Below, one piece after another: positions 7,531 to 29,514 of a DNA stretch of 40,902 nucleotides. The stretch covers positions 1 through 40,902 of the forward strand of contig JAPPBY010000018.1 of the NCBI GenBank assembly GCA_026702615.1, in the 5' to 3' direction. A program made the position numbers and the translations under genes. Under the pieces are notes generated by a model that saw only the letters and a list, made by a program, of their open reading frames with translations, was not told where the DNA came from and did no database searches. How positions within the stretch are numbered: position 1 is the stretch's first letter; every line of letters starts with the position of its first letter. The stretch comes from Chloroflexota bacterium (lineage in GTDB: Bacteria > Chloroflexota > Dehalococcoidia > Tepidiformales > Tepidiformaceae).

Positions 7531-7590
7531 CCCGGCGGGCCGCCCCGCGCGGGGCGTACGATGGCGGCCACCTCAAGCGGAGGGCACGGC

Positions 7591-9234
7591 GTGGCAGAAC
7601 TGAACGGCGGACAGATCATCGCGCGGCAGCTAAAGGCGGCCGGCATCGACACGGCATTCGGGGTGGTGGCGGGACCCATGATCGAGGTCATGGCGGCGAT
7701 GGAGCGGGAGGGGATCACGGTGGTGAACTGCCGGCACGAGGTGTCGGCGGGGTTCGCGGCCTCGGCCTGGGGCTGGGCGCGGGGGAAGCCGGGCGTGCTC
7801 GTGGTCGGGTCGGGACCGGGGATGACGAACGCGGTCACGCCCATGTACGTCGCCACGGAGAGCGCGATGCCGCTGGTGGTGCTGGGGGGCTCGTCGGCGG
7901 GGAATCAGCGGGGACTCGGGGCCTTCCAAGAGGCAGACCAGGTCGCGTTCGCGGCGCCCGGCTGCAAGTGGGCGACGCAGGTCGATAGCCAGGCACGCAT
8001 CGCGGAGTACGTCCACCTCGCCCTGGGGCGGGCCCTGAACGGGCGACCCGGGGCGGTCTACCTCGACTTCCCCGCCGAGCTGATTCGCACGCCGTTCGAG
8101 GAAGCGGACGTCGAGTGGCGCACGAGCGAGCCGGAAATCTCGCGGCCCCACCCGGACCCCGCCGCCCTCGAAGCGGTCGCGGACATGCTGGCGGAGGCGG
8201 AGCGGCCGCTCGTCATCATGGGGAAGGGCGCGGGCTGGGCGGAGGCGGGGCTGCCGCTGCAGCGGCTCGTGGACCGGGGCATCCCGTTCGTGTCGTCGCC
8301 GATGGGGCGAGGCTCGATTCCCGATGACCACCCGATGTTCATGAACGCCGCCCGCTCGGCGGCGCTGGGCGGGGCGGACGCGGTCCTGATGGTGGGCGGG
8401 CGCTTCAACTGGGTGTTCCAGTTCGGAAAGTCGCCGCGATTCGCCGAGGGCGCGCGCCTCGCCCACATCGACATCGTGGCGGAGGAGTTCTACAGCGGGG
8501 CGGACGTCGAGACGGGCATCGTGGCCGACTGCGCGATCGCCGTGGAGCAGCTCAACGGGCTGCTCGACGGACGCAGCCTGCGCGTCGCGAGCAGCGACTG
8601 GGTGGGGACGCTGCAGGAGTCGCGCTCGCGCAACGAGGCGAGCTCAGCGGAGGCGATGGCCTCGGACGAGGTGCCCATCAACCACTTCCGGCTGCTGCGG
8701 GACGTGCGGGACTGCCTCGACCGCGACGCGACGGTGACGGTCGACGCGGAGCTGACGATGGGCGTGGCGCGAGCGGTCATGCCGAGTTTCGGGTCGCGCC
8801 TGCGGCTGAACTCGGGCACGACGGGCTGCATGGGCACGGGTCTGCCCTACGCCATCGGCGCGAAGCTGGCTCGGCCGGACCAGCAGGTGGTGGCGGTGCT
8901 CGGCGACTACGCCTTTGGCGCCGCGGCCATGGAGGTGGAGACGGCGGCGCGCATCGGCTGCAACGTGGTCATCGTCGTGTCGAACAACGGGGGCATTGCG
9001 GGCCACTCGATTCAGGACCGGACGTTCGCGCCCGACGCGCCCCCCATCGCCGCCCTCCTCCCCGTCGCCTACGAGAAAACGGTGGAGATGGTGGGCGGCT
9101 GGGCGCGACGCGTCGAGGATCCGGCGGACATCGCGCCCGCCGTCCAGGAGGCGTTGGCGGCGAACACGGTCGCGCTGGTCAACGTGCTGACGGACCCGAA
9201 GGGCCGTCGGTCGGGGTCGGCGTACCTGGGGTAG
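7591..9234 (+). CDS. Thiamine diphosphate enzyme, oxalyl-CoA decarboxylase / 2-hydroxyacyl-CoA lyase-like
   Basis: The protein has 547 residues with the three-domain ThDP fold. The N-terminal pyrimidine-binding domain carries the activating glutamate E50 (NCRHEVSAGFA) and VVGSGPGMTNA. The C-terminal PP domain has GDYAFGAAAMEVETAARIG followed by VSNNGG, the GD...NN metal/diphosphate motif. The MEVETAARIGCNVVIVVSNN version resembles oxalyl-CoA decarboxylase and 2-hydroxyacyl-CoA lyase, more so than acetolactate synthase. The likely reaction is cleavage or decarboxylation of a 2-hydroxy- or 2-oxoacyl-CoA. GTG 7591 is chosen because GCGGAGGG precedes it by 7 nt and the family starts near LNGGQI; ATG 7561 would add 10 residues. 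Confidence 0.88.
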   Translation: MAELNGGQIIARQLKAAGIDTAFGVVAGPMIEVMAAMEREGITVVNCRHEVSAGFAASAWGWARGKPGVLVVGSGPGMTNAVTPMYVATESAMPLVVLGGSSAGNQRGLGAFQEADQVAFAAPGCKWATQVDSQARIAEYVHLALGRALNGRPGAVYLDFPAELIRTPFEEADVEWRTSEPEISRPHPDPAALEAVADMLAEAERPLVIMGKGAGWAEAGLPLQRLVDRGIPFVSSPMGRGSIPDDHPMFMNAARSAALGGADAVLMVGGRFNWVFQFGKSPRFAEGARLAHIDIVAEEFYSGADVETGIVADCAIAVEQLNGLLDGRSLRVASSDWVGTLQESRSRNEASSAEAMASDEVPINHFRLLRDVRDCLDRDATVTVDAELTMGVARAVMPSFGSRLRLNSGTTGCMGTGLPYAIGAKLARPDQQVVAVLGDYAFGAAAMEVETAARIGCNVVIVVSNNGGIAGHSIQDRTFAPDAPPIAALLPVAYEKTVEMVGGWARRVEDPADIAPAVQEALAANTVALVNVLTDPKGRRSGSAYLG

Positions 9235-9284: not shown

Positions 9285-10856
9285 ATGCCCGAGTCCTACA
9301 TGGTTCAACTCACCCTTCGGTCTGCCGACGATGGAGGACCGGTGGGTCGACAGCTCCTTCAGGCCGTGGCGGAAGAGGTTCTTCACTGGGCCACTGGGGC
9401 GGAGGGGCTGCCAGAAGGGTCTGAGTTCCCGCACCGCGGGGCGTGGACGAGCGCACGGTTGGGCACGTACGACGTTGTTGGCAGGGCTGACGAGGACTTG
9501 GAGTGGTGGGAGATTGAGTGGGTGAGGCCCGACGCCGAGAGGGACGCACTGTGGGTGAGTCAGATTCAACTGGCGACCAAGGGTAAAGACGTTGAAGGTC
9601 GGATTCGAGTCACGGGGCGTGCCCAGCCGGGGAAGATTACGCCGAAAATCATCTCAGTACGGCGACCGAACGTCGTCCCTCGGCTCGTTACGAGGTTTCA
9701 CGCCACGTACTACGGCGACCGCGTCGATGCGATGCCCGTCTCCCCTATCTCCGCACAACGGGTGGGGCGCTTGGTAGAGCGTCTTGAGGATCCTGAGCGA
9801 CGCCTCCCCCTAGTGCTCATCAGCGTGCCCCGCGAGGCCTCCAAGCCTCTCGTAGTACCAGAATACGCGGCTGACCAGTTGGCAGGCCTCGCCGAAGTTG
9901 CCCTACTTCAGGACGAGTCAGCGTCCTGGCAACTCACGGAGAGGGTGGGGAAGCCCCTCTCTTGTTTCTGGGGAGCCGTCCGGTTGTATTGGCCAGGTTT
10001 CATGCTAAAGACCGATGACCCCTACTCCCACCGCTTATGGCTCTCAAGGCGCATTGAGATGCAGGGGCCGCACGGAGTGGTCGACCAAATCTTCAACATG
10101 CTGTGCTCTAGAGTCGCGCGCGCAACAGGTGACATGACCCTCTGGAAGGAGGTGCGGGATGGCATCGTCGCGCGCACTGAAGCCGAGACACGCAGGCGAC
10201 TCCAGGAACTTGGGGCAGACAGTGAACTCCTTGCTCTAGCTGAGGAGGAAATCGAGGCGGCAATACTAGCTAGAGAACGCTCAGACAAACTCGAGGAAGA
10301 ACTCAAGGAAGCGCAGCAGCGGATCGGCAAGCTCGAAGAGGAGCTAGAAGCCCAACGCGAGCAGTGGACGCAGTTCCAAGCGTACTCCACGAGCCGTGTT
10401 GGAGAGGCTGAAGAGTCTCCCACGGTTGAGAGCATCTTGGGCGCCGTCGAGACGGCCCGCCAACTCCCAAATATTCGGGTTCTCGACAGCGCAGTTGACT
10501 CGGCCCGCAGATCACAGTCGAACAGAGGGCCCGACCTCTACAAGGTCTTCTGCGAGTTGGATCGCCTAGCCGTCGCATACCGCGGAGGGCTGGGGACAGG
10601 GGTCAAGGAGTGGCTCCGCGAGCAGCTCCCTAGTGTGCCGCACGAATACGCTTCCGATCTCAGCGACACGACGACTGGCAAGAGGGAACAGACCTACACA
10701 TTCGGCGGCATCTTCATGCCGAAGCATCTCAAGTTCGGAGGCGGCTTCAACACGCAGAACCTGCTACGCGTCCACTTTGAATTTGAGTTCGACGACGATC
10801 CTCCGCGTTGCGTCATTGGTCACGTCGGCGAGCACCTGCCGAACGAGATGTCGTGA
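9285..10856 (+). CDS. Unrecognised coiled-coil protein of an accessory island
   Basis: The protein has 523 residues in three parts. An N-terminal globular region (1 to about 130) holds WWEIEWVRPDAERDALWVSQ. A middle domain (about 130-260) has YYGDRVDAMPVSPISAQRVG, RRLPLVLIS and LSCFWGAVRLYWPGF. Next comes a charged coiled coil (about 297-367), then a C-terminal domain (about 430-523) with FGGGFNTQNLLRVHFEFEF and CVIGHVGEHLPN. No transmembrane segment, P-loop or nuclease motif is evident. ATG 9285 follows GAGG. Codon use includes more AT-ending and rare codons (CTA, AGA, ATA) than the neighbours, suggesting transfer. I cannot name a family; the architecture suggests a large assembly or defence-associated protein, with low certainty. 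Confidence 0.7.
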   Translation: MPESYMVQLTLRSADDGGPVGRQLLQAVAEEVLHWATGAEGLPEGSEFPHRGAWTSARLGTYDVVGRADEDLEWWEIEWVRPDAERDALWVSQIQLATKGKDVEGRIRVTGRAQPGKITPKIISVRRPNVVPRLVTRFHATYYGDRVDAMPVSPISAQRVGRLVERLEDPERRLPLVLISVPREASKPLVVPEYAADQLAGLAEVALLQDESASWQLTERVGKPLSCFWGAVRLYWPGFMLKTDDPYSHRLWLSRRIEMQGPHGVVDQIFNMLCSRVARATGDMTLWKEVRDGIVARTEAETRRRLQELGADSELLALAEEEIEAAILARERSDKLEEELKEAQQRIGKLEEELEAQREQWTQFQAYSTSRVGEAEESPTVESILGAVETARQLPNIRVLDSAVDSARRSQSNRGPDLYKVFCELDRLAVAYRGGLGTGVKEWLREQLPSVPHEYASDLSDTTTGKREQTYTFGGIFMPKHLKFGGGFNTQNLLRVHFEFEFDDDPPRCVIGHVGEHLPNEMS

Positions 10857-10895: not shown

Positions 10896-11405
10896 ATGAC
10901 TGATACGCCCACCCCGCACATCCGACTGGCGACCGACGAGGAGCTGCCGGAGGGGTTGCGTGGGCGTGGCGACGACTTCACGCGGGTGTTCGGGCACAAC
11001 TCGGCGCTGTTCGAGCGTTGGAACGAGTGGTACCGCCCGCTGATCCGGGACGGCGCCGTCTCGGCGCGTCTGAAGGAGATGGTGCGGCTGCGGGTCGCGC
11101 AGCTGAACGCGTGCGACTTCTGACAGGCCGCCCGGCTTCCCCTGTCAGGGGAAGGTGACACCCTCGAGGAGAGCACCGTCGGCAAGATTGCGACGTGGGG
11201 CGACCAGGACTTTACTGAGGCCGAGAAGGCCGCGTTCCACTACGCCGAGCGGCTGTTCGTGGACCACGCCAACATCGACGGCGAGCTGTTCGACGAGTTG
11301 GCCGAGCACTACACCGAGGAGCAGATCCTTGAGATCGGGTGGGCGGTCGTGAGCTACATGGGCTACGGGCGCCTGATTCACTCGTTCGGCCTGAAACCCT
11401 CCTGA
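10896..11405 (+). CDS. AhpD/carboxymuconolactone decarboxylase-like protein with in-frame TGA (candidate selenocysteine, CxxU)
   Basis: Read straight through an internal TGA at 11121-11123, the frame encodes 169 residues of a typical AhpD/CMD-fold protein. Before the TGA comes LKEMVRLRVAQLNACDF, after it QAARLPL; the C-terminal half has DQDFTEAEKAAFHYAERLFV, YTEEQILEIGWAVVSY and GYGRLIHSFGL. Family members carry a redox CxxC exactly here (normally NxCxxC). The TGA is codon 76, so the motif reads C73-D-F-U76. A strong hairpin follows at the spacing of bacterial SECIS elements. AhpD-like selenoproteins with CxxU are known. Likely role: peroxide or disulfide redox chemistry. A nonsense mutation is the alternative. 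The downstream hydrolase has its Shine-Dalgarno inside this gene's final stop. Confidence 0.82.
11121..11154 (+). promoter_or_regulatory. Candidate bacterial SECIS element after the in-frame TGA
   Basis: An 8-bp perfect stem, CTTCCCCT (11136-11143) with AGGGGAAG (11147-11154), closes the three-base loop GTC (11144-11146). Counting the T of TGA as 1, the loop G and U fall at 24 and 25. In the Escherichia coli fdhF SECIS the essential loop G and U are at 23 and 24. The bulged U of fdhF is not evident. SelB binding is inferred. Confidence 0.7.
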
Positions 11406-11417
11406 GGAGAACCGCAA

Positions 11418-12374
11418 ATGACCTTCGATTCCAGCGTCTTCGGCGAGGACGCCATCAGCCAGGAGACGCGCGAGTTCGTGGCCGCCTCGATGGCGATGCG
11501 CGAGCAGATGCCATCGATGGAGAACACGGATCTCGTGGAGCTGCGCCGCTTGATGGACGAGGGCGGCGGGGCGTTCCCCGTGCCCCCGCCCGTCGACCGG
11601 GCGGAGGACCGCACCGTGCCGGGCATGGGCGAGGGCGCCTCGATCCGCATCATCCGGCCGGAGGGGCGCGCGCCCACAGGCGTTTACCTCGACATCCACG
11701 GGGGCGGCTGGGTGATCGGGCGGGCGCGCATGAGCGACCAAGCCAACCTGGCGCTGGTCGAGGCGTTCGGCCTCGCGACGGTGAGCGTCGACTACCGGCT
11801 CGCGCCGGAGCACCCGTATCCCGCGGGTCCGGACGACTGCGAGGCGGCGGCGGTGTGGCTCGTCGAGAACGCGGCGGCGGAGTTCGGGACGGAGCGGCTC
11901 CTGATCGGGGGCGGTTCGGCGGGCGCGCACCTGGCGGCGGTCACGCTGCTGCGGATGCGGGACCGGCACGGCTACACGGGATTCATCGGGGCGAACCTGG
12001 TCTACGGTCCGTACGACCTCTCGATGACGCCGAGCCAGCGGCTGGGCGTGGGACCGGAGGGCGGCCTCGACCGGGCCGCGATCGATCGGTTCTACGAGAT
12101 GTTCATCCCCGGGGTGGATACGACCGACCCGGACGTGTCGCCGCTGAACGCGCACCTGCAGAACATGCCGCCGGCGCTCTTCACGGTGGGGTCGTACGAC
12201 CCGCTGCTGGACGACTCGCTGTTCATGCACGCGCGCTGGCTGGCGGCGGGCAACGAGTCCGAGCTGGCGGTCTACCCCGGCGGCCCGCACGGCTTCGACG
12301 CGGCGCCGATCCCGATCGGGCAGGAGGCGCGGGAGCGCGTCTTCGCGTTCATCGGGGAGCGGCTCGGCCAGTAG
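11418..12374 (+). CDS. Alpha/beta hydrolase of the hormone-sensitive lipase family (carboxylesterase)
   Basis: The protein has 318 residues. The oxyanion-hole motif HGGGW is at 94-98, the nucleophile serine S167 lies in GGGSAGAH, and the acid/base pair is D261 (GSYDPLLDD) and H291 (GGPHGF), the complete HSL-family triad. It hydrolyses short acyl or aryl esters; the natural substrate is unknown. No signal peptide is seen, so it is cytoplasmic. GAGGAG overlaps the TGA terminating the preceding AhpD-like gene (TGAGGAG), 12 nt before ATG, so efficient translation may depend on ribosomes finishing the upstream gene, and hence on reading through its internal TGA. Confidence 0.92.
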   Translation: MTFDSSVFGEDAISQETREFVAASMAMREQMPSMENTDLVELRRLMDEGGGAFPVPPPVDRAEDRTVPGMGEGASIRIIRPEGRAPTGVYLDIHGGGWVIGRARMSDQANLALVEAFGLATVSVDYRLAPEHPYPAGPDDCEAAAVWLVENAAAEFGTERLLIGGGSAGAHLAAVTLLRMRDRHGYTGFIGANLVYGPYDLSMTPSQRLGVGPEGGLDRAAIDRFYEMFIPGVDTTDPDVSPLNAHLQNMPPALFTVGSYDPLLDDSLFMHARWLAAGNESELAVYPGGPHGFDAAPIPIGQEARERVFAFIGERLGQ

Positions 12375-16586: not shown

Positions 16587-16696
16587 CTCTCATCGTTCTC
16601 CCCTTCGGGGATTCCGGCTTTGGCACCTTGTCTCCTGGGAGACAGGTTGCCCGGGCTTCACGGGGCCGGTTCCCTCCACCCGTCTGGATAAGGGCG
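16587..16696 (-). promoter_or_regulatory. SAM-I (S-box) riboswitch
   Basis: On the minus strand the conserved S-box core is visible: CTTATCCAGA (P1/P2), then GGTGGAGGGA, CCGGCCCCGTGAAGCCCGG with GCAACC (kink-turn and SAM pocket), a P3 hairpin, GGTGCCAAAGCC, a P4 hairpin (CCCCGAAGGGG) and GATGAG pairing back to CTTATC to close P1. It stands about 180 nt upstream of the thrC-like gene and points to methionine/SAM-dependent repression of that operon. No clear terminator follows, so control may act on translation or on the leader peptide. The 16410-16809 stretch has no other gene beyond this leader. Confidence 0.92.
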
Positions 16697-29406: not shown

Positions 29407-29436
29407 AAAAGGCCCGTCCGTCTGAACGGACCGGCC
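29407..29436 (-). terminator. Riboswitch-controlled intrinsic terminator upstream of purH
   Basis: On the minus strand GGCCGGTCCGT-TCAG-ACGGACGGGCC forms a hairpin (one mismatch) followed by TTTTG. Its 5' arm uses the GGGCC end of the ZTP aptamer, so ligand-bound aptamer and terminator are mutually exclusive. Confidence 0.8.
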
Positions 29437-29510
29437 CAGGCGAGCGGCCATGCTTGTGATTGCTCGGGCTCCCCCGCGGTACTCCGCGTATTCGCCAGTC
29501 ACCCGAGTGG
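29433..29510 (-). promoter_or_regulatory. ZTP riboswitch (pfl motif)
   Basis: On the minus strand the conserved pfl pieces are present in order: CGGGTGACTGGCG, the spacer GAATACGCGGAGTACCGC, GGGGGAGCCCGAGCAAT, and CCGCTCGCCTGGGCC, whose CGCCUGGGC is the pseudoknot/ligand end. ZMP/ZTP accumulates when folate-dependent formylation is short, and binding turns on purH. Confidence 0.9.
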
Positions 29511-29514
29511 AGTG

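Follow-up and report, generated by a model that had tools for sequence, protein, structure and literature searches.

AhpD/CMD-like selenoproteins with a CxxU motif have been known since 2005. Such CMD-domain or AhpD-like proteins were predicted in Sargasso Sea and GOS data, where they form the families COG2128 "AhpD-like 1" and pfam02627 "AhpD-like 2" (PMC1088965, PMC2398784), and AhpD-like/CMD selenoproteins appear in a review of 2026 (PMC13188914). Selenocysteine is also mentioned for published Dehalococcoidia genomes. AhpD of M. tuberculosis has a catalytic relay made up of Glu118, Cys130, Cys133 and His137, and it is an adaptor for AhpC that also has a peroxidase activity of its own (PMC3141380).

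We analyzed a stretch of DNA of 40,902 nucleotides (the window), which is contig C31 of a 2.87-Mb assembly (G000; 95% complete) of an uncultured Chloroflexota bacterium that is probably marine or sponge-associated and whose nearest named relatives are Dehalococcoidia/Chloroflexi MAGs. Judging from the sequence comparisons described below, the following frame is almost certainly a genuine bacterial selenoprotein gene.

10896 to 11405, forward strand: AhpD/CMD-like selenoprotein gene, predicted to encode 169 residues with Sec76; stop codon TGA at 11403-11405
11121 to 11123, forward strand: in-frame TGA, predicted to be read as Sec76, the equivalent of AhpD Cys133

The frame starts with an ATG at position 10896 and runs through 75 sense codons to the TGA at 11121-11123 (codon 76), which is its only internal TGA. 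Another 93 sense codons follow before the stop at 11403-11405. The peptide around codon 76 reads CDF-TGA-QAAR, with the TGA at the second position of CxxC, and a match to the Pfam CMD family (PF02627; 32.8 bits, cut-off 23) extends from residue 38 to residue 117, with the TGA inside it. The original prediction, made from the letters of the window, held that the frame stays open for 93 codons past the TGA, that family similarity flanks it and that it replaces the second cysteine of the redox CxxC; the sequence with its translation, the Pfam match and the alignment with AhpD Cys133 agree with it on all three points.

With a CxxU in a PF02627 domain and a bacterial SECIS, the protein falls within the definition of the Sargasso/GOS families, whose members share with it the PF02627-type domain, the CxxU, a SECIS immediately downstream and a marine origin. 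Compared by family description, the group to which it belongs differs in being apparently Sec-only, in consisting of lineage-restricted Chloroflexota orthologues and in having the motif CxxUxxxR. The best NCBIfam match is NF053654 (GroundWater_YciW, "YciW-related (seleno)protein"), which is also matched by all 25 aligned homologues, but at 48.4 bits against a curated cut-off of 310, the protein is a relative of this family and not a member. The score against TIGR01926 (peroxidase-related enzyme; 25.8 bits) is likewise under the curated cut-off of 81.8.

The genome contains a complete set of genes for selenocysteine incorporation. A tRNA-Sec was detected in the same assembly (71 bits, over the cut-off; called SeC(tca) by ARAGORN), together with SelB (299 bits), SelA (516 bits) and SelD (347 bits), each over its curated cut-off. 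The fate of the prediction had been tied to the presence of selB and selC; selC, selA, selB and selD are all there. The SelD gene (G000:C8:40194-41129) has an in-frame TGA of its own, in the motif GCGGUASK, and in this it resembles the known selenoprotein SelDs, which carry UxxK (PMC13188914). The hairpin downstream of the SelD TGA differs from the simple +24 type of the AhpD-like genes described below.

Orthologues were searched for in 393 genomes of the class with a profile built from nine copies (E < 1e-60). This search yielded 18 orthologues, with protein identities down to 54%, and every one of them has exactly one TGA, always at the position of codon 76. SelA was found in 17 of the 18 genomes concerned versus 254 of the 393 genomes overall, and the 18th genome (81% complete) has a tRNA-Sec. 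Among genus-level copies, dN/dS is 0.104 for the part before the TGA and 0.093 for the part after it, and since purifying selection is thus equal on the two sides, the region past the TGA appears to be translated and needed. An isolated nonsense change followed by a degraded downstream sequence, which the original prediction had named as the outcome that would speak against it, is thus not what the close relatives display: they retain the TGA, and the frame past it is intact and under constraint.

No Cys form was present among the 18 orthologues. Cysteine does occur at the Sec position in more distant homologues, namely in L048, L049 and L059 (CDVC, CKMC and CGFC) and in actinomycete homologues, and this expectation of the prediction, a Cys at residue 76 in homologues, therefore holds outside the orthologous group, inside which all copies have the TGA. 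The Sec/Cys exchange accordingly rests on distant homologues. In a tree of Sec and Cys forms, the orthologous group is entirely Sec; because of long branches, the deep placement of the Cys rows is unsure. A search of 400 genomes drawn from the phylum (E <= 1e-25), a draw that left out most of the home family, returned the own genome alone. No relatives were found on viral contigs, and plasmid records gave distant homologues only, two of which were inspected (Embleya and Nonomuraea) and have Cys. Altogether, the orthologous group is apparently a lineage-restricted, Sec-only subfamily of AhpD/CMD-like selenoproteins.

A hairpin is present shortly downstream of the in-frame TGA.

11136 to 11154, forward strand: predicted bacterial SECIS hairpin, with an 8-bp stem (11136-11143 and 11147-11154) and loop GUC (11144-11146)

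The stem arms, CUUCCCCU at 11136-11143 and AGGGGAAG at 11147-11154, pair perfectly. The stem begins 12 nt and the loop 20 nt past the TGA, which places the loop G at +24 and the loop U at +25 (counted from the U of the UGA, so that the loop G is the 24th nucleotide); every detail that had been predicted for this hairpin proved exact. We then determined the chance frequency of stems of 8 bp or longer whose loop has a G at its first or second position. With the loop starting 16-37 nt from the codon, such stems were found at 3.9% of the window positions and in 3.4% of the sequences obtained by recoding the peptide synonymously, and with the loop starting at 22-26, at 0.9% and in 2.7%, respectively. 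Moreover, the local folding energy of the region does not differ from that of shuffled sequences (z 0.08), that is, there is no extra stability. Because of the chance rate of about 3% and a fold no stabler than shuffles, the hairpin in the single window sequence is weak evidence. No other TGA-interrupted coding-like frame in the window has a comparable hairpin, the best one reaching 6 bp.

Comparison among relatives gives a different picture. In 17 of the 18 orthologues, a stem of 7-8 bp carries the loop GUC at exactly +24. In the remaining one, L038 (G314:C84; the same gene as L025), an 8-bp stem is rebuilt as CCCCUGUC-GUC-GACAGGGG, with the loop 3 nt further downstream (+27) and GUC kept. 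L046 has two compensated pairs (C-G to A-U, U-A to C-G) and L047 has one. Within the gene, synonymous conservation peaks at the hairpin codons, where 81% of same-residue pairs have the identical codon versus 50% elsewhere. Stems of 7-8 bp are also present in eleven other TGA-bearing genes, of which nine are distant AhpD-like ones and two are paralogues from the own genome; these stems differ in sequence (for example CUGCUGC/GCAGCAG and UCUGCAUC/GAUGCAGA) and have a loop GGC or GGG at exactly +24. A G-loop stem at exactly +24 occurs by chance at 0.06% of the window positions. In a mixed alignment, 94.2% of the cells are paired versus 64.8 +/- 3.0% after shuffling, and the covariation score is 0.870 versus 0.274 +/- 0.045 for shuffled and at most 0.275 for slid versions. 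The three Cys homologues examined are without the hairpin. The conservation and covariation of the hairpin across relatives are far beyond chance. Hence, the hairpin is conserved in UGA-bearing relatives, as had been anticipated, and the argument that a random nonsense mutation would rarely be accompanied by such a hairpin stands on the comparative data, while for the single sequence it is weakened by the chance rate given above.

These results bear on two other readings of codon 76. The TGA interrupts the frame, and since chance hairpins of this size exist at about 3% of sites, the locus might be a CMD pseudogene truncated by the TGA or a case of recent nonsense mutation; however, the TGA is common to all orthologues, purifying selection is equal on its two sides, and the hairpin is conserved and covarying, and on these grounds, we rejected this explanation as vanishingly improbable. 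Alternatively, UGA might be read as another amino acid, such as Trp, through a variant code or leaky read-through, which in principle needs no SECIS. UGA also terminates this very gene (11403-11405), the aligned residue in homologues is Cys and not Trp, and the Sec system is complete and accompanied by SECIS-like hairpins; decoding by an alternative code was therefore rejected as well and is extremely improbable. Very likely, the best explanation of the whole is a selenoprotein gene with a SECIS-decoded UGA at codon 76, whose product is an AhpD-like thiol/selenol oxidoreductase. SelA would make Sec-tRNA-Sec using selenophosphate from SelD, and SelB carrying this tRNA would bind the hairpin with the GUC loop, which starts 12 nt past UGA 76, so that the ribosome would read this codon as Sec, a proposal based on homology and conservation.

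An AlphaFold2 model of the protein (mean pLDDT 90.5) has an all-helical AhpD-like fold and matches AhpD-like peroxidase-related structures along its whole length, among them an AhpD of D. radiodurans (6k40_A; Z 18.5). Three further codons correspond to positions of the active site of M. tuberculosis AhpD (PMC3141380).

11076 to 11078, forward strand: codon of Glu61, at the place of AhpD Glu118 and 12 residues before the first active-site Cys, assigned by alignment and spacing
11112 to 11114, forward strand: codon of Cys73, the equivalent of AhpD Cys130, assigned by alignment
11133 to 11135, forward strand: codon of Arg80, at the place of AhpD His137, assigned by alignment

Glu61, Cys73 and Sec76 thus supply the Glu and the CxxC/CxxU part of the AhpD catalytic relay, but instead of the His four residues past the second Cys there is Arg80, a residue that all 25 aligned homologues share, those with Cys as well. 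M. tuberculosis AhpD and P. aeruginosa PA0269 share with the protein the active-site helix hairpin and a Glu twelve residues before C-x-x-C/U (fold matches: Z 16.5 to 2o4d and 9.9 to 1gu9, M. tuberculosis AhpD), and differ from it in that the protein has Sec for Cys133/Cys51 and Arg for His137/His55. The debrominase Bmp8 (6ohi, 6ohj) is of the same fold and family, but its identity is about 19% and it has a Cys where the protein has Sec.

The genes surrounding the selenoprotein gene in the window are the following.

7561 to 9234, forward strand: ThDP-dependent lyase/decarboxylase-like gene, which in near relatives lies immediately before the selenoprotein gene
9285 to 10856, forward strand: HEC-07-like candidate defence gene of 523 codons (candidate anti-phage family; PADLOC E 4e-48)
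11418 to 12374, forward strand: alpha/beta-hydrolase (Abhydrolase_3) gene, starting 12 bp past the selenoprotein stop

In several genus-level relatives, the ThDP enzyme gene ends 13-19 bp before the selenoprotein gene and the alpha/beta-hydrolase gene starts just after it. This close flanking suggests an operon, in which the ThDP enzyme and the hydrolase would be probable partners of the selenoprotein gene. In the window, the HEC-07-like gene separates the ThDP enzyme gene from the selenoprotein gene; at this place, several close relatives have the 13-19 bp, and in two more the spacer measures about 470-517 bp. Because of the short spacer in close relatives, the HEC-07-like gene looks like a strain-specific insertion. 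A conserved operon was discarded as a guide to function, as these neighbours are shared by genus-level copies, whereas most orthologues at greater distance have other surroundings. No ahpC-type or peroxiredoxin partner was seen beside the selenoprotein gene in the window. Elsewhere in the window, a SAM riboswitch (16587-16694, reverse strand, 75 bits) and a ZMP/ZTP riboswitch (29427-29512, reverse strand, 58 bits) were detected.

What the all-helical AhpD-like product would do can be proposed from this comparison. Sec76 would most likely be the nucleophile that reduces a hydroperoxide or another oxidised substrate, and Cys73 would resolve it as a selenenylsulfide; we infer these attacking and resolving roles from the mechanism of M. 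tuberculosis AhpD. Glu61 and the invariant Arg80 may tune the protonation of Sec76, and a thiol reductant would regenerate the enzyme. An AhpD-like redox or peroxidase role, with an inferred substrate, is reasonably probable; a peroxidase activity as such is uncertain because His137 is replaced and no ahpC-type partner lies beside the gene. The protein might instead act mainly as a thioredoxin-like adaptor, carrying electrons to a peroxiredoxin or to neighbouring enzymes and not to small peroxides. Such a role has a precedent in the adaptor function of M. tuberculosis AhpD, but the lack of a neighbouring peroxiredoxin partner in the window and the different neighbourhoods in different lineages make it a possibility on the unlikely side. 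It could also be a selenoprotein without peroxidase function that acts, in the manner of Bmp8, as a Sec-dependent reductase, be it a reductive dehalogenase or another one; Bmp8 turns up among the fold matches (Z 15.4 and 15.3) as well as among the sequence matches. Some of the nearest relatives come from bins that, by their names, look sponge-derived, sponges being a habitat known for brominated aromatics, and the neighbouring genes at genus level encode a ThDP lyase and an esterase-like hydrolase and are not peroxide-stress genes. The AhpD-type peroxidase-related structures score higher, however, a common fold does not show function, and the orthologues include some from an ALOHA ocean bin and from genomes that do not have the ThDP/hydrolase neighbourhood; we consider this identity quite improbable. 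Improbable too, in our view, is the broader proposal of an AhpD-fold, Sec-only subfamily within a lineage-specific expansion whose Cys/Sec/Arg site catalyses a non-peroxide reaction, for instance a reductive dehalogenation or a reaction linked to the ThDP lyase and the hydrolase.

Five AhpD/CMD-like genes of the own genome contain an in-frame TGA, one per gene.

C31 (window): CDFU, hairpin at +24
C3:38235-38663: CRYU, hairpin at +24
C2:43298-43762: CGYU, hairpin weak
C38:4341-4781: CDFU, hairpin at +24
C34:16416-16796: CFTU, hairpin at +22

At G000:C2:43298-44255 and G000:C34:16416-17266, the TGA-bearing gene adjoins an AhpD-like gene without CxxC (CEAE or no Cys), an arrangement suggestive of pairs made up of an active and an inactive subunit. 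SelA and tRNA-Sec are both absent from five genomes of a sister genus (G060, G129, G141, G152 and G184), whose AhpD-like matches are free of stops; the one that was read, from G152, has the motif CGFC and shares 50% identity with the TGA-bearing paralogue C2:43298-43762 (CGYU). The use of TGA in the AhpD-like family thus follows the presence of the Sec system.

As CxxU AhpD-like/CMD selenoproteins had already been described, newness is limited to a lineage-restricted subfamily of a known kind. The original prediction had considered Sec in AhpD-like proteins to be known and the subfamily and lineage to be possibly new; its first half agrees with the literature (PMC1088965, PMC2398784, PMC13188914) and its second half is narrowed to this extent. 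In the literature searched, we found no prior description of the orthologous group, its restriction to one class (in these samples), the no-Cys pattern or the five-gene set, which leaves their newness unproven. That a single genome has five AhpD-like genes with a TGA is the more striking side result: with that many copies, uncultured Chloroflexota put selenium heavily into AhpD-like enzymes. Ordinary gene calling stops the frame at codon 75, and the gene and its relatives are therefore truncated or missed in annotation. With its fixed +24 loop, its varying stems and Cys versions in a Sec-less sister genus, the AhpD-like family is a natural test set for the rules of bacterial SECIS elements.
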